Shown piece by piece: positions 33,243 to 55,755 of a stretch of DNA of 64,000 nucleotides. This DNA is from a bacterium. Its GTDB lineage: Bacteria; Bacteroidota; Ignavibacteria; Kapaibacteriales; UBA7675. The position numbers and the translations under genes are program-made. Each line of letters opens with the position of its first letter. Position 1 is the stretch's first letter. The notes below the pieces were generated by a model that did no database searches, was not told where the DNA came from, and saw only the letters and a program-made list of their open reading frames with translations. Location of the stretch: assembly GCA_030430495.1 (NCBI GenBank), contig JAUIKM010000019.1, positions 1 to 64,000 on the forward strand, in the 5' to 3' direction.

Positions 33243-33986
33243 TTAACCGGCCAATACTCTGCGTCGGTACTTCGGCAGGACGCTTGTAAAACGCGGGCGC
33301 AGCGCACCGGACCTCGTTCCGCGCACTTCTTCGGCGCCGCGTATCGCGCCAAAACCACGTGACGCCGATTTGCCGAGTCCGATACCATCGGGAAGTACAA
33401 CATTCGTTTTAAAACTCCCTTGAAAGGCCATCATTTTAATGTTCTTGAACGAAGTCGTACAGGCTGCAACCTGCGGCTGGGCGATGATTTCACGGTCTGC
33501 GATTTCGTTGCAGGCGCCGAGAAACACGAGAATATTGCCGACGAGTATGCTCCGTAATATCTCGATTTGCTTCGTGATTCCGGCCGCACAGTAGCGCGCG
33601 TGATTGCGTGCGTTCAGGGCCATCCACATGCTGTCAAAACAATAAGTGTGTAGTTTGTCGTCAACGCCGACACTGACGCTCCGCGTTAACACTTCGCGCT
33701 CGGTTACAGGCAGAATCCGATCGTCGATGTTAAAGTATTCAACCTTGTCGACCAGTTTCTGCAGCACGCGGCTGCCCTCGCCGACGCCCACCAGAGTAGG
33801 TACGCCGTTCAGCACTTTGTACTGGACAACCGGGTATGCATGTCGGTATGTATCGCCCTCCAGATGGTTGTGCAGCTCCGGAATGTCGCGGAACCGATTG
33901 CCAAAGAATCCGCGCAGTTTGTGCGCGTCGCGCCGTTCGAGTTGTATCGCGGGAAAACGGATGGTTGTGATGTCAATGTTACGCAT
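33243..33986 (-). CDS. cas6: Cas6b-type CRISPR pre-crRNA endoribonuclease
   Basis: 247 residues, last gene of the Csm operon. FFGNRF, then LHNHLEGDTYRHAYPVVQYK and TLVGVGEGS match the N-terminal RAMP domain of the Bacteroidota Cas6b family. FKTNVVLPDGIGLGKSASRGF near the C-terminus is the Gly-rich RNA-binding loop. Cas6 cuts CRISPR repeat RNA into crRNAs, here presumably for the Csm complex encoded upstream. The catalytic residues vary in this family; His at about residues 39 and 41 are candidates. No array lies in the window, so its repeat substrate must be elsewhere in the genome. Confidence 0.85.
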   Translation of the reverse strand: MRNIDITTIRFPAIQLERRDAHKLRGFFGNRFRDIPELHNHLEGDTYRHAYPVVQYKVLNGVPTLVGVGEGSRVLQKLVDKVEYFNIDDRILPVTEREVLTRSVSVGVDDKLHTYCFDSMWMALNARNHARYCAAGITKQIEILRSILVGNILVFLGACNEIADREIIAQPQVAACTTSFKNIKMMAFQGSFKTNVVLPDGIGLGKSASRGFGAIRGAEEVRGTRSGALRPRFTSVLPKYRRRVLAG

Positions 33987-34002: not shown

Positions 34003-35328
34003 TTAATTATTACTGTTTCTGGCTCTGTCGTCGATGACGCGAGGCAATTGAAGCGCTAATCCCTGACCATCGAATAAATCCTCAAGTTGGCTGCGGATGA
34101 AACCTCCAATCACGGCGTCGACTTTCTCGTAGGTATTTACATCAATCGTGGTGACTCCATGCGCAAGAATGGAATCATTACGATAACAAAGCGTCCCGAT
34201 GAAGCGAGAGCGCTTTTCATTCCAGGCTGTTCCGAGTTCATCGTTTAAATCGGCAAGCAAATCGTATCCGCGCACAAGATCGATCTTATTCCGACCGTCC
34301 CTCAGGTTATACTTTTGCTGCAACTCCTCCGGCAGTTGACTTGCTCGTACGTTGGAGGTAATAATCCCAAATTGTTTCACAAGCCTGAGTTGCATCAGCA
34401 TTTCAAGCGAGCGGTAAAGACGGGCAACGGCATCGTCGAATCGTCCATTTTCGGCGCGACGCTGCGCATTAAATAGCATATCGCATACGATTTCAGCCGA
34501 CCCTTTGACTTCGACTTCTTCATCACAATTTACACGAGACTCCAACAGTTGACGTTGTGAAATCACTGCTTCCAGATAGAGCTGATACCTTCCACGCTCT
34601 TTGAATATGGGTAAGCTCAGCAGATGTTCCAAAGCCTGTTCGTGGTCAAACTTGTCCCATGATGTAAAAGTGCGTGACCACTTTACATAATCAAGTAGTC
34701 GTCGCTTCAACCAACTATTCAGTCCCGATTCATTCCGGCGCAGCTCATCGATATTGACCAGGACTGCTTCGTAGTCATATCTGGAAAGCAGTTCATCACA
34801 GATCAACAAATGCCCAACTGAAAACATGGCCTGTCGGCTGTGCCTGTTAAGCACTTCCGAATCAGGCCGCACCTCCGTTTTGTCTCCTTTCTTACGATCT
34901 CCGACCAAAATCGATAATTCAACATTGGGGAATACATGCGAGGCAAAATAGAGTCCAAAGGCCATGGATTTTGTCGCCGGCGTTACATCGGTAATAATTG
35001 TACAGTCGGGGAATTCTTCTCTCAAAGCATTGAACAGGTTTGTTGATACTCTGATACAGTGCTCCAGATCGTCGGGATGATCGATCTCGGTCACTCCGTA
35101 TCTGTCTGTATCACGCAGATTGCATTGGTCAATGATACTCGGCATGGACTCGAATTCGCCATTGTCGTCTCTTCGTTTGCAGCAGGGCGAATCTCGTTCG
35201 GCCACAAATTTACGCGAGTCTACACTCACCAGGAACTGCACAAAGTCTGGTTCATTCTTTCTAATGCTTTTAACCACTAAATCGCAGGCAAATCCAACAC
35301 ACATTACGAGTACAGTTTTTGATTCCAT
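34003..35328 (-). CDS. CARF-HEPN ribonuclease, Cas02710 (TIGR02710) family
   Basis: 441 residues. The N-terminal CARF domain (about 1-180) starts TVLVMCVGFACDLVVKSI and has DVTPATKSMAFGLYFAS, the conserved (D)xTxxTKxM loop that binds cyclic oligoadenylate. The C-terminal half (about 270-400) is HEPN: RFDDAVARLYRSLEML and the catalytic R-N-x5-H motif as RNDSILAH (Arg383, His390). Such proteins degrade RNA when activated by the cyclic oligoadenylate Cas10 makes on target binding. It lies 3 bases after csm5 and 16 before cas6. By eye it is AT-richer than the Csm genes, so it may be a later addition. The specific ligand ring size is unknown. Confidence 0.85.
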   Translation of the reverse strand: MESKTVLVMCVGFACDLVVKSIRKNEPDFVQFLVSVDSRKFVAERDSPCCKRRDDNGEFESMPSIIDQCNLRDTDRYGVTEIDHPDDLEHCIRVSTNLFNALREEFPDCTIITDVTPATKSMAFGLYFASHVFPNVELSILVGDRKKGDKTEVRPDSEVLNRHSRQAMFSVGHLLICDELLSRYDYEAVLVNIDELRRNESGLNSWLKRRLLDYVKWSRTFTSWDKFDHEQALEHLLSLPIFKERGRYQLYLEAVISQRQLLESRVNCDEEVEVKGSAEIVCDMLFNAQRRAENGRFDDAVARLYRSLEMLMQLRLVKQFGIITSNVRASQLPEELQQKYNLRDGRNKIDLVRGYDLLADLNDELGTAWNEKRSRFIGTLCYRNDSILAHGVTTIDVNTYEKVDAVIGGFIRSQLEDLFDGQGLALQLPRVIDDRARNSNN

Positions 35329-35331
35329 TTT

Positions 35332-36543
35332 TCATCCTCGTGGAGTAAAGGTTAATTTCACCCAGCCGAAGGGTTCGTTGGGGCGTTCCTTGAGTTCGGT
35401 AAAAGAACGGGTTGTCGGGAAGTCAAACGATTTGCGGACTTCGCGGCGGCCCTTCCTGTCGGCAAAGGCCAGACTGATAAGCTCGCACAGCAACTTTTCA
35501 TTTTCTTTTGCCTCGACGTCAAAACCCAGACCAATTGAGTTGTCAAACCAGGTCTTGCCGGCTCCTATGCGCATGTAAGCTTCCATGCTCCCCGCATTAT
35601 CAATTTTGTCCATCATTCCGGAGCAAAAGACTTTGGGAACGTTAAACTTTGATTTCCCGCGCAGGATTGCCTCGTCCCTGGCGGCGCTTTTGAAGGACAT
35701 TTCGTTAATGATATCGAGCAGGGTCTGCAAGTCATTGTCATGCAGAAATGAAAAGTAGTCCTGGTGTTTGAGTTTGCGCTGATCTATAGCAGCCGATTCG
35801 CGGTGACGCTCGTAAATACGGAACTCGCCTGTCAACTTTGCACCTCGATTGATCGCCTCACATGGAATCGGAATTTCCTTGGCAGTACTTTTAATCGAGA
35901 ACCGGGGGCGTGACGTAATCACTACATCTATGTCGCCTTCAGGCTCGAAGTCGCTTACGTGCAGGTATCTGAATTGATCGTTGGAAATTGGACCCAGACA
36001 ATCCCTGCCAACATTGATGCGCTTCAGGGCCTTCCGGGCGAAATTAATCTTTGATTCCTGCGTAGCACTTCTGAGTGCGTGCCGGGTTTTTTCGGCCCCC
36101 GAGTGGTTTGCCATCCAGTCGACCATCACCGCCGTCCGCACCGCGCCTTTCAGGGAACTGCCGGGAATATAGGCTCTGTCGTTGCTGCTTATGCAGCGAT
36201 TAATTTCTTGTCTGCCGGGGTCAACGTGCGATTCTACCATTGACGCCGTTACATCGTCCAGGTGGCACTTAAGCGTGTCATTGATATAGCGTTTAAGATC
36301 GAAATTCGAACGATTGTTGTCCATCCCGCCGCGGATTCCGCGCACGTACTCCTCCATCAATTCCGGCGCTTCGTTGATCTTTTGCATCAGCTTTTTTTGA
36401 TCGAGAATGCGCACGTTGTTGCCTTCGTAGAGATAGTCGGTGTATGCCGACAACTTCTCTGTTTCTCCCGCTCCAATCGCAACGGGCGAAAGGACTTCCA
36501 GCCCCACATCGTAGACGTGCAGGGGAACTGCCATAGATTGCAT
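35332..36543 (-). CDS. csm5: Csm5, type III-A Cas7-family subunit
   Basis: 403 residues. LEVLSPVAIGAGE near the start and AYIPGSSLKGAVRTA at about residue 125 are RAMP-fold features of Csm5 (the substrate-like crRNA-capping Cas7). YMRIGAGKTWFDNSIGL near residue 330 is the second Gly-rich segment characteristic of Csm5. The subunit caps the crRNA 3' end in the Csm complex. It lies 13 bases after csm4 and 3 bases before the CARF-HEPN gene, so it is part of one operon. Confidence 0.9.
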   Translation of the reverse strand: MQSMAVPLHVYDVGLEVLSPVAIGAGETEKLSAYTDYLYEGNNVRILDQKKLMQKINEAPELMEEYVRGIRGGMDNNRSNFDLKRYINDTLKCHLDDVTASMVESHVDPGRQEINRCISSNDRAYIPGSSLKGAVRTAVMVDWMANHSGAEKTRHALRSATQESKINFARKALKRINVGRDCLGPISNDQFRYLHVSDFEPEGDIDVVITSRPRFSIKSTAKEIPIPCEAINRGAKLTGEFRIYERHRESAAIDQRKLKHQDYFSFLHDNDLQTLLDIINEMSFKSAARDEAILRGKSKFNVPKVFCSGMMDKIDNAGSMEAYMRIGAGKTWFDNSIGLGFDVEAKENEKLLCELISLAFADRKGRREVRKSFDFPTTRSFTELKERPNEPFGWVKLTFTPRG

Positions 36544-36556
36544 TGTTTAACCTCGT

Positions 36557-37651
36557 TTAGATTGGAATGGTAAAAGCCGTCCCGTTGCGGTAAATCGGAT
36601 GGAAGATATTTTTGTCCGGACTGACGTCGACAACACGACCGCGAACGTGCGCACTTAACAATGCGCCTTCGTGCACCAGCCGCACCTGTTTGCGGTGGAA
36701 TTCGCGAGGGATGTTTTTCTCCGTGTCCTCCTCATAGTCCTGGCCCAACGTCCATGCACCGCGCAGTGTCAGGTCATAAGCCTCAAGATGATCAAACTCT
36801 TCCTGATTGCGCGGCGACAGCATCGACAGCGACAGAAAAAGGTTCGAACGATCGGTTCGATTCTGCAGTTCGTCCGGCAGGTTTTCAAGCTGAACGGATT
36901 CGAAGCGCCCCTTGCCCGTTGAACGCTCGCCGCCCACGCCCTCGTCGGCCAGAATGCGGAAACAGGCCAGCAGTTTCTTCCAGTCCGCATCCGGCAGCGA
37001 GTGATCGACTAACACGTAAAAATGACCGCGCAGGTATTCGCTCCCGTTAATGGGCACATCCCTGAACTGCAGATTGGTTTCCGTGTAAAAAGCGTCTTTG
37101 TCTACGCGTTTGTGCACGTGAACTTTGGGCGCATTCGGCGTGGAGGTGAACATTGCCAGTGGTCTGTTATTCTTGTCCACGTTCGTGAATCCGCCAATTT
37201 CGGCGTCCGTGCACAAACACCGCCCTCCAATATTAACGTGCTCAAGCAATTTTCCAGCGGCATTGTACAACCCGGGTTTATCGGATGTCAGCCGGCCCAA
37301 CTGTTTGTAAACGCCCAGGGAGATGAAGCGAATCTTCTTCCAGGCTTTAACGCCGGAGTCGGGATCGAGGTCAATGTCGATGGGCGGACGCGGCAGGAAA
37401 TAGATCGTGTTTAACACTTTGTCCGTTGTGCGCCGCTCGACGGCGTAAAAACCGGACGACATCCGGACTTTGGGCGTCGCGCCGTCGAACCAGTCGCGCA
37501 GTGTTTCAACATCGCCGAATGTCATGGCCCAGATGTTGGCCAAACCGGAAAACAGCGTGTCCGAGTGGATAATCGAGTCCGTCCGATCCAGCGAGCGCGC
37601 GCCCAGCCTGAATTGCGCGCCCGGTTTACATCGCAGTTTTAACAATTGCAT
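36557..37651 (-). CDS. csm4: Csm4, type III-A Cas5-family subunit
   Basis: 364 residues. The start (LLKLRCKPGAQFRLGARSLD) and IIHSDTLFSGLANIW at about residue 27 are typical of Csm4, as is the Gly-rich loop GVGGERSTGKGRFE at about 235. Csm4 holds the crRNA 5' handle and contacts Cas10. Its gene starts 1 base after the csm3 stop. The length is somewhat above the usual 300 residues, with an insertion of charged residues before the C-terminal beta strands. Confidence 0.9.
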   Translation of the reverse strand: MQLLKLRCKPGAQFRLGARSLDRTDSIIHSDTLFSGLANIWAMTFGDVETLRDWFDGATPKVRMSSGFYAVERRTTDKVLNTIYFLPRPPIDIDLDPDSGVKAWKKIRFISLGVYKQLGRLTSDKPGLYNAAGKLLEHVNIGGRCLCTDAEIGGFTNVDKNNRPLAMFTSTPNAPKVHVHKRVDKDAFYTETNLQFRDVPINGSEYLRGHFYVLVDHSLPDADWKKLLACFRILADEGVGGERSTGKGRFESVQLENLPDELQNRTDRSNLFLSLSMLSPRNQEEFDHLEAYDLTLRGAWTLGQDYEEDTEKNIPREFHRKQVRLVHEGALLSAHVRGRVVDVSPDKNIFHPIYRNGTAFTIPI

Positions 37652-37652
37652 G

Positions 37653-38375
37653 TCAGCCTCCCAGTTTGTACTTGGTCTCTGATTCCGTGGGAGTCTCTTT
37701 CATGTATTCGCCGACTGATTTCTCCGTTATTTCGACATCGACAAATTTAACTTTCCCGTAGCCGCGCGAACCCTGCCCGCCGAGATAGTCGTCCTGCAGA
37801 ATGCGCATGTACGAGAGGATGTTTTCAACGTCTTCTTTCTCTTCATCGAGGTTAAACACGTTGTAGATGAACTCGAATGAAAACTTCGCGCCGGCCGGGA
37901 CGCGCTCGATCTGCCGCGGGTGCTGCGCCGCACCGGACTTGCGGTCGATCGAGTTTTCCGTTTTCACCTCGGTCCAGAGAGCGCCGCCCAATATCGCAAA
38001 GTCTTGTTTAAACTGCTTCTGATCAAGTGAACTGTCGCTTACCTGCAGACGCGTGGGATTTTCGGCTTCGCGCTTGTCGCCGCCCTGACCAAAAATCCTG
38101 ACGACTTCTTTGCTGTCATCCGCAACGTCCACGGCTCCATTGTGTTTGCGCGCCGCCAGCGAACGCAGTTTGCCTTTGATCGAGCTGCCGGGAATAAAAG
38201 GAATACCTTGTGGCGTTTTGATAACACCCAGACCGAGACCGCCGATATCCAGCGTCGTACCAGAGCCGCCAATATGCAGCCCGGTTGCGGCTTCGATTTT
38301 ACCGCGGATAAAGATCTTTTTGTGCAGCTTCACTTCACCTGCACCAGTTCCGTTTGTTGTTGAGTTTGCAGCCAT
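37653..38375 (-). CDS. csm3: Csm3, Cas7 backbone subunit lacking the RNA-cleaving Asp
   Basis: 240 residues. The RAMP fold is clear: KIFIRGKIEAATGLHIGG, then FIPGSSIKGKLRSLAA and YLGGQGSRGYGKVKF. In active Csm3 an Asp in the loop after GLHIGG (Asp33 of Streptococcus thermophilus, in I-G-A-I-D) cleaves target RNA. Here the aligned loop reads I-G-G-L-G with Gly48 at that position, read directly from the minus strand near 38230. The rest of the protein is intact, so it can still form the crRNA backbone and bind target, but slicing is predicted lost. Its start overlaps the csm2 stop by one base. Confidence 0.92.
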   Translation of the reverse strand: MAANSTTNGTGAGEVKLHKKIFIRGKIEAATGLHIGGSGTTLDIGGLGLGVIKTPQGIPFIPGSSIKGKLRSLAARKHNGAVDVADDSKEVVRIFGQGGDKREAENPTRLQVSDSSLDQKQFKQDFAILGGALWTEVKTENSIDRKSGAAQHPRQIERVPAGAKFSFEFIYNVFNLDEEKEDVENILSYMRILQDDYLGGQGSRGYGKVKFVDVEITEKSVGEYMKETPTESETKYKLGG

Positions 38376-38878
38376 CAGGATTTGCCTCCGTAGTATTTGT
38401 GATATGCAATGATTGCTTCAAAGAAGTACTGAAATGCCTTGAGCTGGTCAGCGGATGTGATGTTAACAATCATCTGATCCAGCAGGTAGATCAGCTTGCG
38501 TTGTTCGTCCTTATCGGCCTTGCCGCTTATATACGCCAGTTGCGGGCGTAGTCGCGCCAATTGTTGATAGTCGGTCTCTGTTTTGATCGCCGGAAACACA
38601 TTGCGCAGTTGTGAGGTCGAGATGTTGTCACCGACACTTTTAACAAAGCTCTTGATTCCATCGATGTATTGGGACAACTTTTGTTTGTCCGAATTGAGAA
38701 AAAACGTGACGTAGTCTTCCGTTTGCAGTTCCTTGGCCAATTGAATCTTGAAATCTCTTTCAAGTTCTTCAATGTTTTTTTTCTTATTGTAGCCACCACG
38801 CTCGTCACGGCTACGCGCCCGGTTGCCGCCGTCGCGTCGGCCGCCAGTATTTTGGTCGCGATTGTCGTTATACCCCAT
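38375..38878 (-). CDS. csm2: Csm2, small subunit
   Basis: 167 residues. The first 35 are Gly/Arg/Asn-rich and probably disordered, possibly RNA-binding. The helical core has ISTSQLRNVFPAIK, LARLRPQLAYISGK and FQYFFEAIIAYHKYYGGK, the standard Csm2 segments (the AYHKYYG end is especially telling). Csm2 lines the target RNA along the Csm3 filament. It lies between cas10 and csm3 in the operon, with 2 bases from the cas10 stop to its own start. Confidence 0.9.
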   Translation of the reverse strand: MGYNDNRDQNTGGRRDGGNRARSRDERGGYNKKKNIEELERDFKIQLAKELQTEDYVTFFLNSDKQKLSQYIDGIKSFVKSVGDNISTSQLRNVFPAIKTETDYQQLARLRPQLAYISGKADKDEQRKLIYLLDQMIVNITSADQLKAFQYFFEAIIAYHKYYGGKS

Positions 38879-38880
38879 TG

Positions 38881-41271
38881 TCAGTCCTCCAATGTTAAGT
38901 GTTCAGGTTCGGAAATCTTTTCGCCTTTCTGCAGCGAAAACTCGGCCCAGCGCGCCGCCACGGCAAACAACATCGGATTAACCGTTGAATGGCCGGCAAT
39001 ACTGCGCAGGAATATCTCTTCAAATTTTTCAATCAGCTTTGTGACGATTGCATTCTTTTCCTCGGCCTGTTTTGTCTGCGGATTGCGATCCAGAAGATCG
39101 CTCAGGAACCAGGCGAGGCGATAGACCGGCGGTACTTCGGTGTGATTACTCTTGTCGAGATAGTGTTTCAGGTCGTGGCAGAGTCGGCGCACCTTAAACA
39201 GGATATCGCGCCCGGCTCCGTGGTCATTGATCAAGTGCACCAGTTTATCCCTGATCTCGGCCGCGTAGTTGTAACAATCCCAGGAGAGCGTCTCGCCGAG
39301 TACATGCACGGCATCCTTGATCGTATTGCCTTCTTTATCCTTGCGACTTTTGGCATGCTCGAGCGCTTCTTCGGCCAGCGGAGAAAAACGCGAGACCGAG
39401 AATTTGGCGGGTATCATGATGATGCCGGCGGACAGCGTCACATCGCGGTTGCCGCCGCAGAATTGTTTAAACTCGTCGTGCAGGCATCGTGCGAATTCAA
39501 ACACCGTATCCCAGGGGCCCAGCAGGAAAACGTCGTCGCCGCCCGAAAACACCATGTAAATGCGATTGTCAAACTTCTTCCATTTCATCAGGCGGTTTAA
39601 GTAACCCTCAAAAAACCACTGCAATTGTTCCGACAAACCGATGTAGTCGGCCAGGCCGGGATGTTCACCCAATCCATCGCGGAACAGCAGGCCCAGGTTG
39701 TCGACATCAAGTTTAAGCACTGCAATTTCATCGCGACCGCTGTTTTCAAGTGCAAAGTTCCCGAGGTGCGCAAATTCGATCGGGTGGCCGACCTTCAGAT
39801 CGCCTTTATCCATCTTTCCGGATTCTATATCCGCATCCCAGCGCTGTTTGTATTTCTCCAGCGCTTCCTCCTCCCAGACCGGCACGTCTTTGACCATAAA
39901 GCGAAAATCGCTGGCGCGTTTGGCGTACTCGGTGCTGTTAAACAGGATTGTTTCGTCGATGAGCGGCTTTTTGTAATCGACGTGGTGTTCGAGTCTGTCG
40001 ACGTAACGTTCCCAATCCTGCACTTTCCGCTTGCTGTTTTTGTTGCTGATCGAGTGCGTCAGCGCGTAGAGCTCCCACGCGGGCAGTGTTTTTGCCAGTT
40101 TGGCAAATGCACCACGCCGATCTTCCTGTTTGAGCGGTTTAAAAACGTCGGCCCAGTCCAGACTCTTGAATTTGCGCGATTTAACGGCCTGGCATTCTTT
40201 GGCGACCTTCGTCATCACGCTCGGCAAGTCGTCACGCAATTCCTTCAGACTCGCCGGCACCCAGCCAAGCGCGAGATAGAGACCGGTGTCCGTTACTGCT
40301 CGCTCCAGCTTCTTGCGACATTCGCACAACTCCTGCGCTCGCGACGCGGGGACAAACAAGGTGAAGTTGCCGCCGCCGTCGAGCAGGATGCAAGTGCGCG
40401 GAATATCGAGTTGTTTAACGATCAGTTCAATCGCGGTCTGTCCCACCAGCTGCACCAGAAAAGAACGGCTCTTGAGTTGACGTGCGGCCCTGGACGACAC
40501 GATGTTAAATATAAAGTCCTGGATGCCGGAAATGTCGCCGCGAACCACGAGGATCGGAGCGGCCGTCGATGAAAAAGGCTGCTCCAGATACTTCTCAACA
40601 TCGTCGCCCAGCGCACCGCTGTTAAACTCGTGCGCCAGGCACCAGGCAATTGCCGCCGTCAGACGCGACTCCTGATCAAGGCTGTTTGTCGGTGAGTTCC
40701 CGGAAGCGATGATGTGCAAGTACTTGCGCATCATTGCCAGGAGCGAACGTTCGTTGCAGGTATCTTTTAACTCGGCGAGAAAACTGTCGAGCAGCATTTT
40801 GTGCTCGCGCAATTCTTTTGCATTTGCCTGCTCATCGGATTCCAGCGGGAATCCAGCTTCGCGTTCAATCGACAGTTTGACGTTTTGTTTAAATGCCTGC
40901 CGGCGACGGCGCGTGCCGTTTTTCCCCAGTACGACAATCGGTGAACAACGTCGAATGTCGTATTTGGCGTCATCGATGCGACGGCCGCGCACACATTCGA
41001 GCGACGCATTCACAATGTTTTGCGCCACGGCGGATGACGGACGATCCGCCAGAAGTTCAAGAGCCGCCAGCGGAAAGAGTGTATCGCTCCGACGGTTGTG
41101 ATATTTGCGACAGGTTTGAATAAACTCCGCCGCATCGCGTTTGGCGGTTTGCGCCGACTCGGATTGCAGGTCCGGCGGTGACTCGTCTGCCACGTCCCTT
41201 GAGTGCAGTCGCTGCAACACGCCCAGCGGCGCAAACAAAGCCGCGGTGTGCAAGTGTTTGAGGTTTAACAT
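38881..41271 (-). CDS. cas10: Cas10 (Csm1) with active cyclase motif but lost HD nuclease motif
   Basis: 796 residues. Palm/cyclase domain: KLDVDNLGLLF (about 520-530), then FSGGDDVFLL with GGDD at residues 577-580, the active site that makes cyclic oligoadenylates from ATP. A palm-like N-terminal half has RGDISGIQDFIF (about 244). At the N-terminus, the helix that normally reads ALLHDIGK-x-x-QR reads AALFAPLGVLQR (residues 10-21), so both the His and Asp of the HD DNase motif are replaced by Ala and Pro. DNA cleavage is predicted absent while signalling is kept. The preceding SAVED gene ends 93 bases upstream. Confidence 0.93.
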   Translation of the reverse strand: MLNLKHLHTAALFAPLGVLQRLHSRDVADESPPDLQSESAQTAKRDAAEFIQTCRKYHNRRSDTLFPLAALELLADRPSSAVAQNIVNASLECVRGRRIDDAKYDIRRCSPIVVLGKNGTRRRRQAFKQNVKLSIEREAGFPLESDEQANAKELREHKMLLDSFLAELKDTCNERSLLAMMRKYLHIIASGNSPTNSLDQESRLTAAIAWCLAHEFNSGALGDDVEKYLEQPFSSTAAPILVVRGDISGIQDFIFNIVSSRAARQLKSRSFLVQLVGQTAIELIVKQLDIPRTCILLDGGGNFTLFVPASRAQELCECRKKLERAVTDTGLYLALGWVPASLKELRDDLPSVMTKVAKECQAVKSRKFKSLDWADVFKPLKQEDRRGAFAKLAKTLPAWELYALTHSISNKNSKRKVQDWERYVDRLEHHVDYKKPLIDETILFNSTEYAKRASDFRFMVKDVPVWEEEALEKYKQRWDADIESGKMDKGDLKVGHPIEFAHLGNFALENSGRDEIAVLKLDVDNLGLLFRDGLGEHPGLADYIGLSEQLQWFFEGYLNRLMKWKKFDNRIYMVFSGGDDVFLLGPWDTVFEFARCLHDEFKQFCGGNRDVTLSAGIIMIPAKFSVSRFSPLAEEALEHAKSRKDKEGNTIKDAVHVLGETLSWDCYNYAAEIRDKLVHLINDHGAGRDILFKVRRLCHDLKHYLDKSNHTEVPPVYRLAWFLSDLLDRNPQTKQAEEKNAIVTKLIEKFEEIFLRSIAGHSTVNPMLFAVAARWAEFSLQKGEKISEPEHLTLED

Positions 41272-41364: not shown

Positions 41365-41931
41365 CTATCGTTTCAGCGTGCGACCGACATCAAGCACGGG
41401 ATGGTAACTCCCCTCGGCCCAATGGTACAAGGTGGCGTTGTTTACCGTGCCCCACATGGCGCCAAGTCCAAAGCTCAGAACAACCGGTGCTGAAATGAAG
41501 AAGTGCACTTTGGCGCCGCCGAGTTCGCGTTGAATGTTGTTAAGCAGTCGGTAAAAACCGCGGACCTGATCGGCCCACTCCGCCGGTTGCGAGTGCTCAA
41601 GCACACCGATTCGTCCATCCCCGTCGAGGGAGGTAATTATGAAGGTGTGATCGATGTCCCCCTTTTCCTGCAGGTACTGTTCAACAGCTGTCCGGATCGG
41701 CCGCGTGATTTCGATGATAACGGCCACGTCCTGAACCTTTTTTGTCGGCTCTTCTTCCGACTCGTTGCGCGGTCTGCTTACCAACAGACCAACCAGACGC
41801 CGCCCACCTGCGATCACGCGCAGAATCAGGTTGCCGCCGAGTTTCACATTAGAGTTGAGGCTCTTTATGCTCCGCGCTCCATCATTAAACTTGTTGACCC
41901 AGTCATTGAGATTCTCAAACATATCCTGCAT
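41365..41931 (-). CDS. Stand-alone SAVED-domain protein, probable cyclic-oligonucleotide sensor
   Basis: 188 residues. Residues about 65-188 fit the SAVED fold: VQDVAVIIEITRPIRTAVEQ, then VHFFISAPVVLSFGLGAMWG (residues 142-160) and ATLYHWAEGSYHPVLDVG at the C-terminus, the segment that in SAVED domains carries the nucleotide-binding pocket. SAVED is a CARF-related sensor found in CBASS and type III CRISPR effectors, normally fused to a toxic domain. Here the N-terminal 60 residues are too short for a known effector and hold an amphipathic/hydrophobic patch (LGGNLILRVIAG). It lies between cas10 and a deiminase-fold gene in one operon, suggesting it senses Cas10's signal and acts on that enzyme. 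The assignment is by motif reading. Confidence 0.68.
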   Translation of the reverse strand: MQDMFENLNDWVNKFNDGARSIKSLNSNVKLGGNLILRVIAGGRRLVGLLVSRPRNESEEEPTKKVQDVAVIIEITRPIRTAVEQYLQEKGDIDHTFIITSLDGDGRIGVLEHSQPAEWADQVRGFYRLLNNIQRELGGAKVHFFISAPVVLSFGLGAMWGTVNNATLYHWAEGSYHPVLDVGRTLKR

Positions 41932-41975: not shown

Positions 41976-43148
41976 TTAAATGGCTCTGTCCAGCACCTTT
42001 GACGCACAGCGCAAAGCGCCGCGATCGCCGAGGTTTGCCGGAAAGTGTCCGGCAATGAATCGCACGTCAAACCCGTGCGAGGTGTAAACTTTGTGGACAA
42101 CTTCACGTGTTCGCAGGTAGGTTTCCATACAGCCTTCCATGCCCGGATTTTCAACGTAGTCCGGCAGATAAACTCGTCGCTCAGTACCGTCAACTTCCAC
42201 CAGCCCGTTGTTGAAGGACTTAAACTGGACTCCCTTTGCGCGGGCATCGACAAACATCGGCAGCCGTTCAACTTCAAAGCAGATGTCGCCGCAGCGCGTT
42301 TGGGCCAGTTCTTTGGCGATAAAATCCAGAACGCGCGCCCGACTGAACACTTCGGAGAGCGACTCCTTCTGGGCGGGCGCACAGAACTCCCCGCACACCT
42401 GCGCCACAAATACCAGATGAGTCCCGGGCTTGCCTTTAACCGGTCCGCCTGGTGTAATTATCATATCAATGTGGCCGAAGTCATCTTTAATCGCCGAGCG
42501 CCGCAGACCGTCGTAGCCGTGGTGGCCGCGTCGCATCAACTCGTCGATCCAGACGATGTGTTTAACTCCCAGAGTTTCCCGCAGCGCCTCGGTAGTTGCT
42601 GTACGCGTCTCGCGGTTCGTTCTGGCACGGCCGTTCTCTGTCGGCAGCAGGTCATTACCGCAGAAGACATAGTCGCCGCCGCACAGAATTTCACCGCCGG
42701 TAATCTTGTGTTCCACCGTGCGGCGGTCGTAGCCGTAGCGGGCCGCCAGTGGAACGGACAAATGCGGCGGCATTCCCGCAGTCGCCATGGCCGGATCGGC
42801 CAGGCAATTGGTTAAACAAAGCCGGTCTGTGCTACTATTCTTTGTTACCGCAATCTGATCCTGCAACCAGCGCGACGTATCCGGGCGGGATCTGCCGCCT
42901 TCAGACAAATCCACAATGCGAACATTGGGCCCGCCCGAATTGTCGCTGTTTTGTCGCTTCCCGGCGACCGGAGAGGGACTCAGCACCGTAATCAACGGAC
43001 TGCGATCTGCAAACGCCCGGAACACGTTTCCAAAATAGTTGTGTACATCGGCGTGCGTCAGATTCTGGCTGCCGGTACTTAACAGAAGGTGCGTAATACG
43101 CCCTTCCCAGTCCGAAAGCAGCCTGTATTGTTCCGTTGATTTGGGCAC
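41976..43148 (-). CDS. Guanidine-modifying enzyme (agmatine/peptidylarginine deiminase fold) in the CRISPR operon
   Basis: 390 residues. It follows the motif order of the PAD_porph/agmatine deiminase family: Asp97 in RWLQDQ (family W-x-R/Q-D), GGEILCGGDYVF (151-162, family GGN-x-x-x-DG), His226 and Asp228 in HIDMIITPGG, NNGLVEV ... VYLPDY before the end, and the nucleophile Cys381 in GALRCAS (family GGxHCxT). Such enzymes deiminate or hydrolyse guanidino groups of arginine, agmatine or protein arginines. The His and Cys needed for catalysis are present; the GGN Asn is Glu and the sequence around the Cys is unusual, so the substrate may be new. It precedes the SAVED gene by 44 bases and is transcribed towards cas10. 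Confidence 0.72.
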   Translation of the reverse strand: MPKSTEQYRLLSDWEGRITHLLLSTGSQNLTHADVHNYFGNVFRAFADRSPLITVLSPSPVAGKRQNSDNSGGPNVRIVDLSEGGRSRPDTSRWLQDQIAVTKNSSTDRLCLTNCLADPAMATAGMPPHLSVPLAARYGYDRRTVEHKITGGEILCGGDYVFCGNDLLPTENGRARTNRETRTATTEALRETLGVKHIVWIDELMRRGHHGYDGLRRSAIKDDFGHIDMIITPGGPVKGKPGTHLVFVAQVCGEFCAPAQKESLSEVFSRARVLDFIAKELAQTRCGDICFEVERLPMFVDARAKGVQFKSFNNGLVEVDGTERRVYLPDYVENPGMEGCMETYLRTREVVHKVYTSHGFDVRFIAGHFPANLGDRGALRCASKVLDRAI

Positions 43149-43168
43149 AGTTCCACTCCGACGTCAGT

Positions 43169-43675
43169 TTAGTTTACAGGTTCGATATTTGTAGTCACCA
43201 CGTGCTGCACGCCGTTGCTCGAATTGCCGTCGTATTTAACCGTCAGATTACCCAGGTTGTCCATTTCCATCGTGATGTCCGTCGTCGTAATGTCGATGCG
43301 GTAGGCGCGGCGCGGCTTGCCGATGCCGACGAGTTCACATTCGTCGCGATCGTCCAGGGTGCCGAAATACTCGAGCCGGTAAGCCTCGTCGTCCATCGTC
43401 GTGTCGTCGGCGGAGTCGTCGATCACGTGAATAAAGTAAGCCTGCGTCTGCGTTGTCCCCAGCGCAAATGTCGAGGGCAAACTTGTTGAATTGCTGATCG
43501 ACACACCGTCGCCGATGACCAATGCGCCGCTGCTGATCTTGAGACCGACTTCGGTGTTTAACAGATCGTAGTCGTCGTTGGTACTGTTGACACAATTGCG
43601 GACGCGAATCTTTTTGCTGCTTTCAAGCAGGTAAACCCGGATTTCGTTCAAGGGATGAGTATCCACGTCAGGCAT
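43169..43675 (-). CDS. Small beta-rich protein upstream of the deiminase gene, function unknown
   Basis: 168 residues from the ATG at 43675 (MPDVDTHPLNEIRVY); a start at 43708 would add 11 residues. No signal peptide or membrane span. The sequence alternates strands and turns (VGLKISSGALVIGDGVSIS; DDEAYRLEYFG; YRIDITTTDITMEM), consistent with an all-beta fold. Its stop is 20 bases before the deiminase-like gene on the same strand, so it may be co-transcribed with the CRISPR operon. It also resembles in size and character the small genes at 61.4-62.5 kb that sit next to the third helical-repeat paralogue. No family recognised. Confidence 0.6.
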   Translation of the reverse strand: MPDVDTHPLNEIRVYLLESSKKIRVRNCVNSTNDDYDLLNTEVGLKISSGALVIGDGVSISNSTSLPSTFALGTTQTQAYFIHVIDDSADDTTMDDEAYRLEYFGTLDDRDECELVGIGKPRRAYRIDITTTDITMEMDNLGNLTVKYDGNSSNGVQHVVTTNIEPVN

Positions 43676-43777
43676 GATCTTTACTCCAAAGTATAGATGT
43701 AATTTCACGAACAGAGGTATCCTGTCCCGAGCGGCGGATGCGCCGGAATTGAAACCCCTGCATTGTTAATTTCTGGA

Positions 43778-44188
43778 TCAGTCTATTGGACAACTCCGCA
43801 CGCAGAGCAGCTCGTCGTCCACTTTTAACTCAACAATCGCAGTTGTTAAGGTGTGAGAAATCACCTGGTATTCTCGATCAATTCCAATTCCGTGTATTTC
43901 GGTTTTCCAGCCCTGTTCAGGACCGGACATCACAATACGCGGTGGTTTCCTGCGGTCCAGCAAAAAGCGGCTGGTCTCAGGCGCTCGGAAAAACGAAACG
44001 TTGCCGGCGAACAAAACACCGTTGTCGGCTTTGATAGCAACGGCATTGACGAGCAGGTTTTCACGGAGCTCAATCCGTTCCGAGAGTTCATTGTAAAACT
44101 CAAGCTCAGTGCGTCGCAAACGCATGCGATAAGATTCGCCGAAGTGGGCGACCACCCTGAACCAATTACCCGTGTTTGCCTTTGCCAT
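43778..44188 (-). CDS. Small beta-rich protein, function unknown
   Basis: 136 residues from the ATG at 44188 (MAKANTGNWFRVVAHF). The frame is open to 44281, but the extra residues look like leader DNA. Strand-rich (LRRTELEFYNELSERI, LLVNAVAIKADNGVLF, AIVELKVDDELL), no signal peptide, no motif recognised. It is divergent from the helical-repeat gene at 44529 across an AT-rich stretch and lies 102 bases before the next small gene on the same strand. Pairing with the helical-repeat paralogue is echoed at 62.5-62.8 kb. Confidence 0.55.
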   Translation of the reverse strand: MAKANTGNWFRVVAHFGESYRMRLRRTELEFYNELSERIELRENLLVNAVAIKADNGVLFAGNVSFFRAPETSRFLLDRRKPPRIVMSGPEQGWKTEIHGIGIDREYQVISHTLTTAIVELKVDDELLCVRSCPID

Positions 44189-44528
44189 CGCAGTTCCGTC
44201 CGTATTCGTCAGCTTCGACGTGATTGTTGATCGAATCGATGCTGCGAATCTACGCGCCGGACCTTCTGTGCACAATCGCAATGTTAGCGATAATATATAT
44301 CACTATTGAGATATAACGGCGGAAATATATTATTTTCTCAGAGTCAATGTCAAATAATAATTTTCGATATTCTCTTTCGGCGTTCGCCTTCCTCGCGATA
44401 AATACTGGATCGACAGCGTCCTGAGCGTCGTTTCCTCACGATTTCTGCGTAATTTGTAATTCTACAAACACAGGTGGGTAATCCTGCCGATGCAATCAAC
44501 CGCCCCGTAACCCAAGCCGGATTTTTGA
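44189..44528. promoter_or_regulatory. AT-rich divergent promoter region
   Basis: About 340 bases between divergent genes. The block 44286-44370 is strikingly AT-rich (runs such as TAATATATATCACTA and AATATATTATTTT) in an otherwise GC-rich window. It probably holds promoters for both directions, including the start of the transcript that may run through the CRISPR operon. I cannot fix -35/-10 or -33/-7 elements with confidence. Confidence 0.45.
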
Positions 44529-46088
44529 ATGGCACGCCCCAACGATTACATACATCGCCTTGTAAAATCGCTGAACGAGCGGGAGCATTCCCTTTATCGC
44601 GAATTTGCCGCAACGTCCCAATTCGGCCGGTCCTGTCTGGACTTTCTGGATTTCATCGATTCAATGCAGGAGTACGATGAACAACGCGCAAAATCTTTTT
44701 GCCGCGACACTCTTAAAGTCTCGAACTATTCACAATTCAAACGGCGATTCTTTGAAACTCTGTTGGCCAACCTGGAACTTAATCGCCACAGTAAAAACGA
44801 GCACGAAGAAATCGACCGGCAGATCCGCGAAGTGGATGTGTTAATCAACAAAGGACTGCTGGACGTTGCCGGCAAACACATCGTCACGATCAAGAATCGC
44901 GCGGCAAAAATCGGCTACCACCACGGCAAGATCGAAATTCTTAATCGCGAGGTTCGCATTCTGCAAGCCAGGCCCGGCAGCAAAGGGGATCAGAAAGTGG
45001 TGGTCCTCAACGAAGAGTTGGACCTGTATTTGAAGGACTACCAGACAAGCAACCGCTACCGCACTTTGTATCACCTCATGTTTATGCTGTCCCGCACAAC
45101 CTACAACGGTGAGATCACAGCGGCAAACATGGCGGAAATTAACAAGATCATGCAACACCCACTTCTGCGGTCGGGGGCCGAGTGGCCGGACGTTCGCAGT
45201 CATCGACTGTATCACAGCATTCACGCCAAACACGCCCGCATTACCGGCCGCACCGACATGGAACTGCAACATCAACACAAAATAGTTGAACTCTGGGAGC
45301 GGGACCGCGATCAGATCGAAGCCAATCCCTCGGGGTATATCAAATCGCTCAGCATCCTCGCCGGTCTGTTTCGCGTTCACAGAAGTTATACCAGGAAAAC
45401 ATTTCAGGCTATGCTGTTCGATCTGGAGTCCACTGTCGTCCACACGTATCGCGATGAAACGGAGCAGTTTGCCGCCGTTGCACTTTTGCGCCTGTTCGAT
45501 GGGCTGAACGGCACACCCGCTGATTTTGAACATCTGATTGCCGAATACATACCCGGTCTGTTAACAGATATGACTTCGCGCAAAGCGCCTCTCCCCCAGG
45601 CCCGCGAACTGGCGCTGTACTTTAACATTGCTGTAGCCTACTTTGTGCACGGCGACTTCAGCAAAGCCGTTGAGATCACCAGTTTAATCGGCAACTTTGA
45701 AAAAACCGTCAGTCGCCAGGACCTTCAAATATTCGCTTCTATCCTGACAAATATTCTGATGTTCGAGTTGTACGGCGATACCACAGCCGAGACGTTTACC
45801 CACAGCAACGAACGCAAACTCAAAAAATCTTCGCTTTCTTTGGTACTTGAATCCATCTGCATTCAACATCTCAAGAAACTTAAAACAACACTCCCGGGGG
45901 AGGAAACTCAAAAGGTTTTCATACCCTGGCGGGATGAACTTCTCAGCCTTCTGGAAAACCACAGTCATAGCCAGAAACTCGGCATCGAAGAGATCATCTG
46001 CTGGCTCAACGCCAGAATCTCCGGCAACAAGATCTATGCGGAATACCGCAAATACATTGATAACTCTTCTGTTTCCGCAGCGCAGTGA
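44529..46088 (+). CDS. Helical-repeat (TPR-like) protein, paralogue 2 of 3
   Basis: 519 residues, all helical, no signal peptide. The N-terminus (LVKSLNEREHSLYREF) matches the paralogues at 19393 and 62837. A conserved INKGLLDVAGKHI helix at about residue 103 corresponds to YRKGLYDSCWKLL and YNKGLYEHCRKVV in the others. Later helices (ELALYFNIAVAYFVHGDFSKAVE) are TPR-like. No enzyme motif. It is divergent from two small beta-rich genes (43169-44188). Its role could be a scaffold or chaperone for the small proteins, which is a guess from the recurring arrangement. Confidence 0.72.
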   Translation: MARPNDYIHRLVKSLNEREHSLYREFAATSQFGRSCLDFLDFIDSMQEYDEQRAKSFCRDTLKVSNYSQFKRRFFETLLANLELNRHSKNEHEEIDRQIREVDVLINKGLLDVAGKHIVTIKNRAAKIGYHHGKIEILNREVRILQARPGSKGDQKVVVLNEELDLYLKDYQTSNRYRTLYHLMFMLSRTTYNGEITAANMAEINKIMQHPLLRSGAEWPDVRSHRLYHSIHAKHARITGRTDMELQHQHKIVELWERDRDQIEANPSGYIKSLSILAGLFRVHRSYTRKTFQAMLFDLESTVVHTYRDETEQFAAVALLRLFDGLNGTPADFEHLIAEYIPGLLTDMTSRKAPLPQARELALYFNIAVAYFVHGDFSKAVEITSLIGNFEKTVSRQDLQIFASILTNILMFELYGDTTAETFTHSNERKLKKSSLSLVLESICIQHLKKLKTTLPGEETQKVFIPWRDELLSLLENHSHSQKLGIEEIICWLNARISGNKIYAEYRKYIDNSSVSAAQ

Positions 46089-47405: not shown

Positions 47406-50400
47406 TCACCGAACCACAAGCACCTGAGTCACCGAGTCCTCAGTCCCGCCGTCGGCGCGAATAAACAGCTCAACCACGTACACGCCGGCCTCCAGCTGCA
47501 ATCCCGTCGCCTCGCGCAGCAGAAGCTCAAAACGCTGGTCACCCGCCGCAAGAGTACCCAGGTCCTGCGCTGTGCGCCGCACGCCGCGCATATCCGTGAT
47601 CTCAACGCGCGCCGCCGCGGCGGCCTCAAGTTTAAAGTTTAACTGCACGCGCTCGCGCCCCGGGTTGGGCGTCAGTTGCAGGTCCCAGGCAGAGGCGTGA
47701 GCAGCCGCGGCGCCGGAAGCGCCCGACTTCGTTACCGCAACGTTCACAGTCACCGTCGCCGTCGAACTGCCGCCGTGGCCGTCCTCCACCGTGTAGGTGA
47801 ACTCATCCGTCCCGGTCGCCGCACCGGCCGTGTAGTCGATCGTTGTGCCGCCGCCCGAAATTGCCGTCGTACCCAGCGTTCCGTCCGTGGCCGAGACAAT
47901 CGACAACACGTGGTCGTCGACGTCGTCGTCGTTGTTTAACACCGTGATGGTCGTTACGGCCGAAGCGTCTACATTGCCTTTGACATCCGCTTCGGCCTGC
48001 GGCCGGCGGTTGCGGAACACAACGGCCAATGCGTCTTCGCCTGCGCCCGCCACGTATGCGTGGTCGCCCGCAGGTGAGAGCGCCGTCATCAGCGCGCCGC
48101 GCAGGCCGTCGAAGCCGGCAAGGCCGTCCACCGCGTTCTCGATAAACGTCACGTCTCCGTCTTCCAGCGAACGTTCAAACACCGCCACCGAATTGTCGAC
48201 CGGCGAAGACGTCCAGACGTGACAGGCGTCGTTGCTCGACTGGACGGACCGCACCGCGGCAAGTCCTTCAACACCGCCCACACCGTCTTCCATGACGTCG
48301 TCAAATGTTAAGCTGCCGTCAACCGCGTTGCGGTCGAATGTGGCCAGTTTGTTCTCCCCGCTGCCCGCCACATACACGTTTTTGCCGTCGGAACTGACGG
48401 AAACGTCGGATGCTTTGTCCAGTCCGTCGTTGCCGTCAATGCCGTCGCGGTAGGCCGCCACAAATGTTAACGCGCCGTCGCCGGTGTTGCGGTCGAACTG
48501 CACCAACGCGTCGTCGCGCGTTGAAGTAACGTACACCTGCGCGCCGTCTTTGCTGACGTCCAGACCGATCGGCTGTCGCATGCGCGATACGCCGCCCGAG
48601 CCGTGTTTGTACACGCCCTCATAGGCCACACTGCCCGCCGCCACGCTGAAGTGCGCCAGTGAATGATCGTCGTAGCCGGTCACGTAAATGCTGCGGCCGT
48701 CGGGGCTGACGCTCAAAGCACGCGGCCGTTTAAGTCCGCTGATCTGCAATCCGCCGTCCATAGTGCCGCGCTTTTTACATTCCACATAACTTAACAAACC
48801 GGTTGACGAATCGCGGTCGAAAATGGCAAGTGAATTGTCGCCGTAACCAACGGCATATACCTGAGCGCCGTCGGGGCTGACCGCAATATCGCTGACGTAT
48901 TTAAGTCCTTTAACGCCGCCGCGCTGGTTGCGCACGCGCCCTTCGTAGCTCAATGCGCCGCTGTTTTCATCGCGCGTGAAAATGGCAATCGAATGGTCGG
49001 ACCGTCCGGCGGCGTAGACGTGTTTGCCGTCGGGCGAAACGACGGCCGATTCAACGCCATCCAGACCGCGTACGTCGCCGCTGCGGTTTTTCTGGCGTTC
49101 CACATATTCAAGATTTATCGGCAAACACTCGGAGTTGATCACACTGACGATGATGGCCGCGGTAGCGCGACAGCCGGCGTCATTTTCAATCGTATAGTTA
49201 AACAGGTCCGTGCCCGCATATCCACCGTCGGGCGTGTAGGTCACAACGCCGTTGGCATGTGTGGCCGAGCCGTTTGCGGGCATCTCCAGGTTAACAATGT
49301 TCAAGCCCGTTCCCGAGTCGTTTGTCAGTACGTTTGTGCTGACGCTGCCCTGCGTGCTCGTCATCAGGTCGGCGGCGGCGGCGATGAACGCTACCGTTCC
49401 GGCACTGAAGGAAGCCGAGGTTGTGCAATTAACTTCGTAGCTTCGTTCAACAGTCAGTTCACCGGAGTTGCCGGCTTCCCACAGCACTTCCACTGTGTGG
49501 CTTCCCTGACCACTCTGGATTGTCCCGCCGGTGACGCTCCACACAATTGTTGCGCCGCCAACGACAGGTTCGGCTGAGTACACGACAGGTTCATTGCTGC
49601 ACTCGCCCGCCGCACCGCTGATACTGATGCCCGGATATACCGTCAGATTGGCGCTCGTCGCGCCCGCGGAAGTAAACAGCGTCAGCGTCAGATTGCCGGC
49701 CGTGCTTGTTAAACCGGCGGGGATCGTTGCAAGAATTTTTTGCGGCGTTAACTGCGAGGTTCCGATACTCGCCGTGCCGACGCTCGCGCCCGAACTGTTA
49801 AGCGTCGTAATCGTCGCACCGGTAACGGCCAGATCGATGCCGCAGAGTGTAACCTGCTGTTCTGCAGAGCTCGCCACAATGCAGGTCGGCGTCACGTCCG
49901 TAAGCTGCGGCGCTTGCAGGTTCAGCCAGATATCATCCGCCTGATTCAGTGCATTGGCGATGATCGCGTCAAGATCGCCGTCGTTGTCTACGTCGCCGAT
50001 GGCCACGCCAAAGCTGCTGCCGCTGCCCAGCGAGCTGGACGCAAATGTTCCGTCGCCGTTGTTTAACCAGATGCGTTGCGCGCTGCCGAAAGTATGCCCG
50101 ACAATCGCGTCCAGATCGCCGTCACCGTCGAGGTCGCCGAGATCAACTGCTTCACCCTGGTTGTGGCCGAAGCTGGAACTGTTAAACGTGCCGTCGCCCT
50201 GTCCGATCCAGATACTCTGCGGTCGGCCGTAGTGCGCCGTCACAGCGTCCAGATTGCCGTCGCCGTCAAGATCGCCCAATGCCACGTCCTGGCTGCGATC
50301 CGTACCAAAAGCCGTACTCGTGAACGTGCCGTCCCCGTTGTTTAACCAGATGCTCGCGCCCTGGTCGTAATTTGTGATGATTGCATCCAGATCGCCGTCG

Positions 50401-53400
50401 TTGTCAAGATCGCCAAGATCGGCTTTGCTGCTGTTGCCGGTGCCGAAGGCCGTGCTCGTGAACGTGCCGTCGCCGTTGTTTAACCAGATCTGGTTGGGCG
50501 CGCCGCTGCCGCCGGCCCCGATCGATACAATCACATCCAGATCGCCGTCGCCGTCCAGATCCCCGATGGCCGCGTCCTTGCCGTTGCCCGTGCCGAAAGA
50601 CGAAATGCTGAACGTGCCGTCGCCGTTATTCAACCAAATATCGTGCGAGTTAAATCCGGCCTGTATCACATCCAGATCGCCGTCGCCGTCGAGGTCGCCC
50701 AGGCCGTTGCCGGACTTGACGCCGCCGCCGAAGCTTGTGCTGTTAAACGTGCCATCGCCATTGCCCAGCCAGACCTGGCTGCCGTAACTTTCCGTGAATA
50801 CCGCGTCCAGATTGCCGTCCCCGTCCAGATCGCCGACTTCGACGTCGAAGCTGGTCCGCCCGCCGAAGCTGGACGTGGTAAACACGGCCGAACCGGCATC
50901 CGCCGCGGCGCGGAAGGTCCAGACGGACGCGCTGCTGATCGGCACGCCGGCGCTGCTCTGTGCATTCGTCACGGTCACATGGATGCGTTCGCCGGCCTTG
51001 AAATCGGCGGCCGGATCGACGACAACTTTACTGCCGCCGTTGAGCGTCGAAAACGCCGCGCTGGTTGTCAACCGGCCGGTTTGTGCACCGTTGACAATAA
51101 AGATGGAATTTGTTGCAGAAGTCGGGTCAAGCGCTTCGCTGAAGGTCACTTCAATATTGTCGCTGCGCACGGCCGCCGTCGTAGCGGGTGCGGGCGAACG
51201 ATCGGTGATCTGCGGCACGGAGACGTTCAGCCAGATTTCGTCCGCCTGATTGAGTGCATTTGCGATGATCGCATCCAGGTCGCCGTCGTTGTCAATGTCG
51301 CCCATGGCCACGCCGAAGCTGCTGCCGCCGCCCAGACCAAAACTCGTAAACGTGCCGTCCCCGTTGTTTAACCAGACCTTTTGTGCGCTGCCGAAGGTGT
51401 GCGCCACGATCGCGTCCAGATCGCCGTCGCCGTCAAGATCGCCCAGGTCGACGGCTTCGCCCTGATTGGAACCGAAGGTCGAACTGTTAAACGTGCCGTC
51501 GCCCTGTCCGATCCAGATGCTCTGCGGGCGGCCGTAATGCGCCACCACCGCGTCCAGATTGCCGTCGCCGTCAAGGTCGCCGATGGCGACGTCCTGGCTG
51601 CGATCGGTTCCAAAAGCCGCGCTCGTAAACGTGCCGTCGCCGTTGTTTAACCAGATGCTCGCGCCCTGATCGTAATTTGTGATGATCGCATCCAGGTCGC
51701 CGTCGTTGTCAAGGTCGCCCAGGTCGACCTTGCTGCTGTTGCCCGTGCCGAAGGTCGTGCTTGTGAACGTGGCGTCGCCGTTGTTTAACCAGATCTGGTT
51801 GGGCGCGCCGCTGCCGCCCGCCCCGACCGTCACAATCACGTCCAGGTCGCCGTCGCCGTCGAGATCGCCGATGACCGCGTCCTTGCCGTTGCTGGTGCCA
51901 AAGGACGAAATGCTGAACGTGCCGTCGCCGTTGTTTAACCAGATGTCGTGAGAATTAAATCCCGCCTGTACCACGTCCAGATCGCCGTCGCCGTCGAGGT
52001 CGCCCAGGCCGTTGCCGGACTTGACGCCGCCGCCGAAGCTTGTGCTGTTAAACGTGCCGTCGCCATTGCCCAGCCAGACCTGGCTGCCGTAACTTTCCGT
52101 GAAGACCGCGTCCAGGTTGCCGTCGCCGTCAAGGTCGCCGACCTCTACGTCAAAGCTGGTGCGCCCGCCGAAGGTGGACGTTAAAAAGGTGAAGTTGACA
52201 TCGCCGCCTGCCGCGGCGGTAAAGCTGTAAACCAGCGCGCTCGTAATCGGATCGCCGCCGGCATTACTCGCGCCGGTGACCGTCACGTAAACGCGCTCGC
52301 CGGGTTTGAAGTTGTTCGTCGGATCAAAATTGCGAATCGGGTTGCCGCTGAACGCGCCGCTCTCGGAAATGAATCCGGTCTGCGCGCCGAAAATGCGAAT
52401 GTTCGAGGCCGTCACGGTCGCCACGCTCATCGTCGTGCTGAAGGTGATGTCGATGTCCGCGTCCACCGGCACGGCGATGGCGTTGGTCGCCGGACTGAAA
52501 GAGCTGATCCTCGGCGCTGCCGGCGCGGCGGCGCCGCCGGTGTTTATCCAGATGTTCTGAGCCTGTCCATTGTTGGCGATGATCGCATCCAGATCGCCGT
52601 CCCCGTCCAGATCGCCCAGCGCCACGCCCGTACTGTTGCTCCCGCCCTGGCTGCTGCTCACAAATGTGCCGTCGCCGTTGTTGAACCAGATGTCTTCGGC
52701 AAACGTGAGGCCGTTGGCCACAATGGCGTCCAGATCGCCGTCGCCGTCGATGTCGCCAAGCGCAACGCCCTGGGCCGGCCCGCTGCCGAAGGCGCTCGTG
52801 GCAAAGCTGCCGTCGCCGTTGCCCAGCCAGATCCACGGCCCCCCGTATCTCGCAATAACGACATCGAGGTTGCCGTCGCCGTCGATGTCGCCGATGGCCG
52901 CCCCTCTCATGTTGCCGCTGCTGCCGAAGGTCGCCGCGCTGAACGTGCCGTCGCCGTTATTTAACCAGATGTGGTTGGCAGAGGCCTGGTTGATGATCAC
53001 AATATCCAGGTCGCCGTCGTTGTCCAGATCGCCGATGACGGACTGGCGGCTGTTGCCGGTGCCGAAGGTGCGGCTGCTGAATACAAAGTCGCCGCAATTG
53101 AGCCAGACCTCGTTGGCGCTGCCGGTGTTGCTCATCAGCACGACGTCCAGATCGCCGTCGCCGTCGAGGTCCGCCATATTGACGTCCATCGTTGCGCCGC
53201 TGCCGAAACTCGAGCTGCTGAAGGTCCCGTCGCCGTTGTTGGTCCAGATTTCCTGCGGCTGATTGTAATTTCCGACGATCGCGTCCAGATCGCCGTCGTT
53301 ATCCAGATCGCCCAGCGCCACGTCCTGCGAATTGCCGCTGCCGAAGGTCGATACGCTGAAGGCGCCGTCGCCGTTGTTCAGCCAGATGTCCTGCGGCTGT

Positions 53401-55388: not shown

Positions 55389-55755
55389 GGGGAGCTCCGG
55401 AAGCAGACTTTCATGCGGAATGGAAAATACGACTTGCGACAAAGCGGCGTTTCAACTACTGGTGCGTTCAAACGCATTGACAAACAGAAAATAGCCAAAA
55501 GCGGCAAATAATCGCCTGTTCGCCCGTAATTCGTCGGATTGCCGGGAACCGGGACGCGCCTGCGCCAACGCACTCAACACCTTTCCGAAGCCGATCGCGC
55601 GCCGCGGCGAGGCAGACCGCGACGAAGATCGCGCCCCGACAACAGGGGACCGTTTGCATGCATTTCGTAATTTGACGCCAGTCCACTCCCCCCGCGCCCG
55701 GCCTTTGGCCGTGGGATTTTGTGCACGCGGCCCGGATCCCAGCCGGAAATTCTGA
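55389..55755. other. Divergent intergenic region, nothing specific recognised
   Basis: About 370 bases between the giant minus-strand gene and lpxD. It must hold promoters for both. I see no TACGTA boxes, palindrome or terminator in it. Confidence 0.5.

Follow-up and report, generated by a model that had tools for sequence, protein, structure and literature searches.

Can a type III-A (Csm) complex do without both of its own nucleases? Target RNA cleavage by Cas7 subunits is regarded as a timer that keeps type III signalling in bounds, and the locus described here, from a draft bacterial genome of 5.6 Mb, raises the question directly: its Csm3 lacks the catalytic aspartate and its Cas10 the HD pair. 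The window, meaning the whole stretch of DNA that was analysed, comprises the first 64 kb of a contig 104.5 kb long. A preliminary description of it proposed a Csm complex that had lost both nucleases and kept only signalling; its coordinates agree with those of csm3 and cas10 in Table 1, and its motif readings and residue numbers were all right when rechecked against the window.

A complete type III-A operon

The operon is complete and runs in the order cas10-csm2-csm3-csm4-csm5, followed by a CARF-HEPN gene and then by cas6b. All seven genes are open and lie close together, no more than about 16 nt apart. Cas10/Csm1 and Csm2 to Csm5, encoded together in one operon, each exceed the curated cut-offs, which makes the effector complex type III-A. 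Two traits are absent, neither of them strictly defining for the subtype: the Cas10 HD nuclease motif, frequent in III-A systems, and the usual Csm3 aspartate for target RNA cleavage.

The CARF-HEPN protein belongs to the TIGR02710 family (Csx1/Csm6-like), both by its score over the curated cut-off and by its R-x4-6-H motif. The latter is intact as R-x6-H (RNDSILAH, residues 383–390), and the protein is likely a cyclic oligoadenylate (cOA) effector.

Table 1 Genes of the type III-A locus and the adjoining SAVED gene (window coordinates).
Feature	Length (aa)	Coordinates	Strand	Evidence
cas10/csm1	796	38881..41271	-	TIGR02578 384 bits (cut-off 170), PF22335 palm2, PF18211 Csm1_B; relatives aligned
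csm2 (Cas11)	167	38375..38878	-	PF03750 5e-17, TIGR01870
csm3 (Cas7 backbone)	240	37653..38375	-	TIGR02582 195 bits (cut-off 90), 1e-57
csm4 (Cas5)	364	36557..37651	-	TIGR01903 6.5e-42
csm5	403	35332..36543	-	TIGR01899 1.6e-37
CARF-HEPN ribonuclease (TIGR02710 family, Csx1/Csm6-like)	441	34003..35328	-	TIGR02710 174 bits (cut-off 83.9), PF09670 6e-31, PADLOC CARF1--CARF_HEPN 1e-99
cas6b, crRNA-processing endonuclease	247	33243..33986	-	PF17262 4.5e-30, PF17955 1.8e-25, PADLOC Cas6b
Stand-alone half-length SAVED protein	188	41365..41931	-	PF18145 1.8e-16, NF033611 4.5e-21

Cas10 has lost the HD site and kept the cyclase motif

When Cas10 is aligned with seven close relatives from whole genomes, Ala14-Pro15 falls on their invariant His-Asp: the window reads AALFAPLG from residue 10, the relatives ALLHDIG or ALLHDVG at the same site. 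The erosion is broader than the preliminary description saw. Other metal-ligand positions of the HD domain are changed in the same alignment (AHKRYSA to TAKRDAA; HH to EL at 72–73; IADxxAS to ASLxxVR at 89–95), and judged by it every one of them is gone. Of 46 HD-domain residues shared by all seven relatives, only 15 survive in the window; the corresponding figures are 33 of 41 for palm1 and 44 of 56 for palm2. Pairwise identity between the window and its relatives is 20% in the HD region (45% among the relatives), compared with 42% in palm2 (56% among the relatives).

The cyclase motif GGDD is intact at residues 577–580; it is present in 85 of 85 Cas10 rows. No displaced HD motif was found in the whole protein. 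Its two sole HD dipeptides, at 598 and 699, sit in the palm2 and C-terminal regions and were discarded as candidates, and no in-frame extension lies upstream of the start.

Loss of the HD pair alone is known and common. Of 82 distinct Cas10 proteins, 79 could be evaluated, the other three being truncated at a contig end, and 21 of the 79 lack the pair; the HD motif is recognisable in 65% of III-A systems (PMC11229360).

Csm3 carries glycine in place of the catalytic aspartate

In alignments with solved Csm3 structures, Gly48 (codon GGT) takes the place of the catalytic Asp. The loop reads GSGTTLDIGGLGLGVIK in the window, and GSKTALDIGGIDLNVIK and GSKSAMDIGGIDLNVIK in its two nearest relatives. 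Loss of the Asp is rare: it is kept by 126 of the 129 distinct Csm3 sequences compared, the three exceptions being Glu (Vallitalea), Pro (genome G044) and, in the window alone, Gly. Ten residues conserved in the clade are missing from this Csm3, and because three of them (K39G, D48G and N50G) share the one loop, a one-base sequencing error is not the cause of Gly48. The terminal branch of the window Csm3 is the longest of its clade (1.37).

Might Csm3 still cut target RNA through another residue, or might another subunit have taken over? The Cmr4 D27A variant of B. fragilis still cleaved slowly (PMC10600005), and Asp43 lies five residues upstream of Gly48 in the same loop. However, Asp43 accompanies the catalytic Asp in most of the clade and was therefore rejected as a newly acquired substitute; no other acid has been gained in the sequence of the N-terminal 75 residues of Csm3. 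We regard residual cleavage of either kind as highly improbable.

The double loss was seen in one genome

Across the 129 distinct Csm3 proteins surveyed, the window alone combines an unbroken cas10 with the loss of both sites. The double loss is absent from its close relatives, and the nearest of them, at about 53% identity, keep both HD and the Csm3 Asp.

The sole other non-acidic case is the Pro of G044, where the cas10 of the same operon is split by an insertion. This locus was first read as HD-less, and hence as a parallel double loss, until the HD half with an intact LMHDIGKF was found at the edge of another contig. The break (G044 contigs C14 1-704 and C17 1-2089; loci L173 and L053) is marked by inverted ends of 15 bp and a direct duplication of 10 bp, as if an element had inserted itself into the gene. 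The acidic exception, from Vallitalea (L119 9986-10720), is a natural Asp-to-Glu swap accompanied by a Cas10 with intact HD and GGDD.

The separate ingredients are already known: HD-less III-A complexes, type III subtypes with inactive Cas7, and messenger-only defence. Their combination within III-A, as a double loss with the cyclase kept, appears to be undescribed in the open-access literature searched. III-A systems with an HD-less Cas10 (L061, L115, L139) have the same gene set as the window and likewise GGDD without the HD pair, but they keep the Csm3 Asp. The Cmr-NucC system of Vibrio metoecus (PMC8682760) also has an HD-less Cas10, relies on messenger-only defence and cuts its target too slowly for that cut to time the signal; unlike the window system, it is of type III-B and prophage-borne, its Cmr4 Asp26 is present and slowly active, and its effector is NucC. 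In III-G and III-H (PMC12669027) the Cas7 catalytic Asp is not conserved and there is no adaptation module, as in the window; III-G also lacks its own array. In both, however, HD remains active and the cyclase does not. The window shows the reverse, an intact palm active site and no HD motif, and was not assigned to either. At the sequence level the finding is firm; as biology it is so far a modest one.

A proposed sensor-only Csm complex

We propose that the locus encodes a sensor-only type III-A system, signalling without nuclease activity of its own, and give this reading a probability of roughly 0.55. Csm2 to Csm5 and Cas10 would assemble on crRNA supplied in trans and bind complementary foreign RNA, whereupon Cas10 would turn ATP into cOA. 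Since neither the HD cut of DNA nor the Csm3 backbone cut of RNA should occur, immunity would rest on the CARF-HEPN RNase of the operon, and the SAVED-only protein adjoining cas10 may bind or remove the messenger. The initial claim that only signalling was kept fits the complex, where both nuclease sites are gone and the cyclase is intact, but not the locus, since a HEPN RNase and Cas6b are encoded there too.

The guides must be encoded at another site, because no CRISPR array was found on the contig, within 104 kb. The same genome (G000; contigs C9, C14, C21 and C63; L068) contains a type I-B locus with cas1 and its own cas6b, and the type I-B repeat TTTCAATCCTTGTTGATCGGATAGT[A/T]GGTCTCG is present in at least 101 copies over several contigs. 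We infer that crRNAs may be supplied in trans from the I-B-associated arrays; such supply has been proposed for III-G systems (PMC12669027).

Outside the HD domain, the proteins of the complex are well kept. Of the residues invariant in the seven relatives, the window retains 67/77 in Csm3, 50/54 in Csm4, 10/11 in Csm2 and 16/20 in Csm5. Erosion is confined mainly to HD and one Csm3 loop, which counts for function, as do the intact GGDD and HEPN motifs, the tightly packed operon and the type I-B locus with its repeats elsewhere in the genome.

The same losses could instead mark early decay, with both nuclease sites lost under relaxed selection and signalling already useless or residual. The long Csm3 branch is as expected under relaxed constraint, and the whole HD domain is eroded, not just its catalytic pair. 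The missing array, the lack of adaptation genes adjoining the locus, the type I-B locus elsewhere in the genome, the restriction of the double loss to one genome and the disrupted state of the G044 locus all point the same way, and several of these weigh directly against the sensor-only reading. Random decay should not, however, have spared GGDD and the HEPN motif, seven open and tightly spaced genes, and, once the HD domain and the Csm3 loop are set aside, about 80–93% of conserved residues. We consider decay on the whole unlikely; should it be under way, the locus reveals the sequence in which a type III system sheds its activities.

A stronger form of the sensor-only reading holds that this is a functioning, selected Csm complex acting as a purely RNA-triggered cyclase, with guides from the I-B system and with the messenger switched off by SAVED or CARF, not by target cleavage. 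This form is doubtful, and we advance it tentatively.

Messenger control and the SAVED protein

The preliminary description had further suggested that signalling would last longer once target cleavage was lost. Engineered Cas7-dead complexes differ by system: the change caused lethal autoimmunity in Cmr-alpha of S. islandicus and was tolerated in three Csm systems (PMC9368842), and it barely altered Cmr of V. metoecus, where cleavage is slow anyway (PMC8682760). In S. thermophilus Csm, cleaved RNA ends stay bound for about an hour (PMC11040160). Some engineered complexes thus signal for longer, though not all, and prolonged signalling is plausible here. A natural III-A complex without the Csm3 cut and the HD DNase would make it easy to ask whether a system can do without the timer if its effectors, or a ring nuclease, are self-limiting.

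Messenger-off control may have shifted from target cleavage to a ring nuclease, a role for which the SAVED-only protein and the CARF part of the HEPN RNase are the two candidates; such a shift would have made loss of the Csm3 timer tolerable. The SAVED gene lies 93 nt upstream of cas10 and, from this position, is probably part of the operon. There are precedents: ring-nuclease activity resides in the SAVED domains of both CalpL and the viral protein AcrIII-2, and the rare SAVED proteins that stand alone in type III loci have been put forward as further ring nucleases, named Crn5 (PMC12751052). The closest solved structure to the window protein by sequence is AcrIII-2 (9R8S), and a low-confidence model of the window protein still matches SAVED folds, including those of CalpL and AcrIII-2. 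Like AcrIII-2 and the proposed Crn5 (PMC12751052, PDB 9R8S), it is a SAVED protein without a fused effector, and like the proposed Crn5 it stands alone in a type III locus.

The differences are nevertheless considerable. AcrIII-2 has 243 aa against 188 aa in the window, where the second half alone of the two-part SAVED domain is recognisable (PF18145, profile positions 68–189 of 190). In a weak pairwise alignment, with an offset of 7 inferred from published residues, the essential His128 of AcrIII-2 (CalpL H396) falls on Arg77, and for this reason we do not file the window protein as Crn5; AcrIII-2 Q178 and S194 fall on Asn and Ser in the same alignment. No SAVED homologue was found in the 293 other genomes of the class, in viral contigs, in plasmids or in the type III loci of relatives. 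Overall, a shift of messenger control to a ring nuclease seems improbable. The SAVED protein is possibly a cOA-binding accessory or ring-nuclease-like protein; it might also bind without cleaving, or have another role.

Neighbouring genes

A deiminase-like gene upstream was considered as a CRISPR effector and set aside: its three-gene cassette recurs three more times, with no CRISPR genes in the flanking 14–20 kb ORF lists. Four copies of the cassette are present in this genome (window 41976-46088; L007 6134-10383; L008 757-5077; L009 5807-10068), comprising a divergent 514–533-aa protein, two small proteins and an enzyme of guanidine-modifying fold. The enzyme is agmatine-deiminase-like (PDB 6nib, Foldseek E 3e-10), with His226-x-Asp228 and Cys381 present, and a Vibrio plasmid carries a homologue. 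Adjoining one copy (L008 5571-12193) are two proteins that look caspase/metacaspase-like by eye, one WD40-like and 1480 aa long, the other of 720 aa. Further along the window, positions 47406-55442 encode a giant protein of 2678 aa with about 26 repeats of about 138 nt, each encoding a DLDGDGDLD-like (FG-GAP/VCBS-type) unit.
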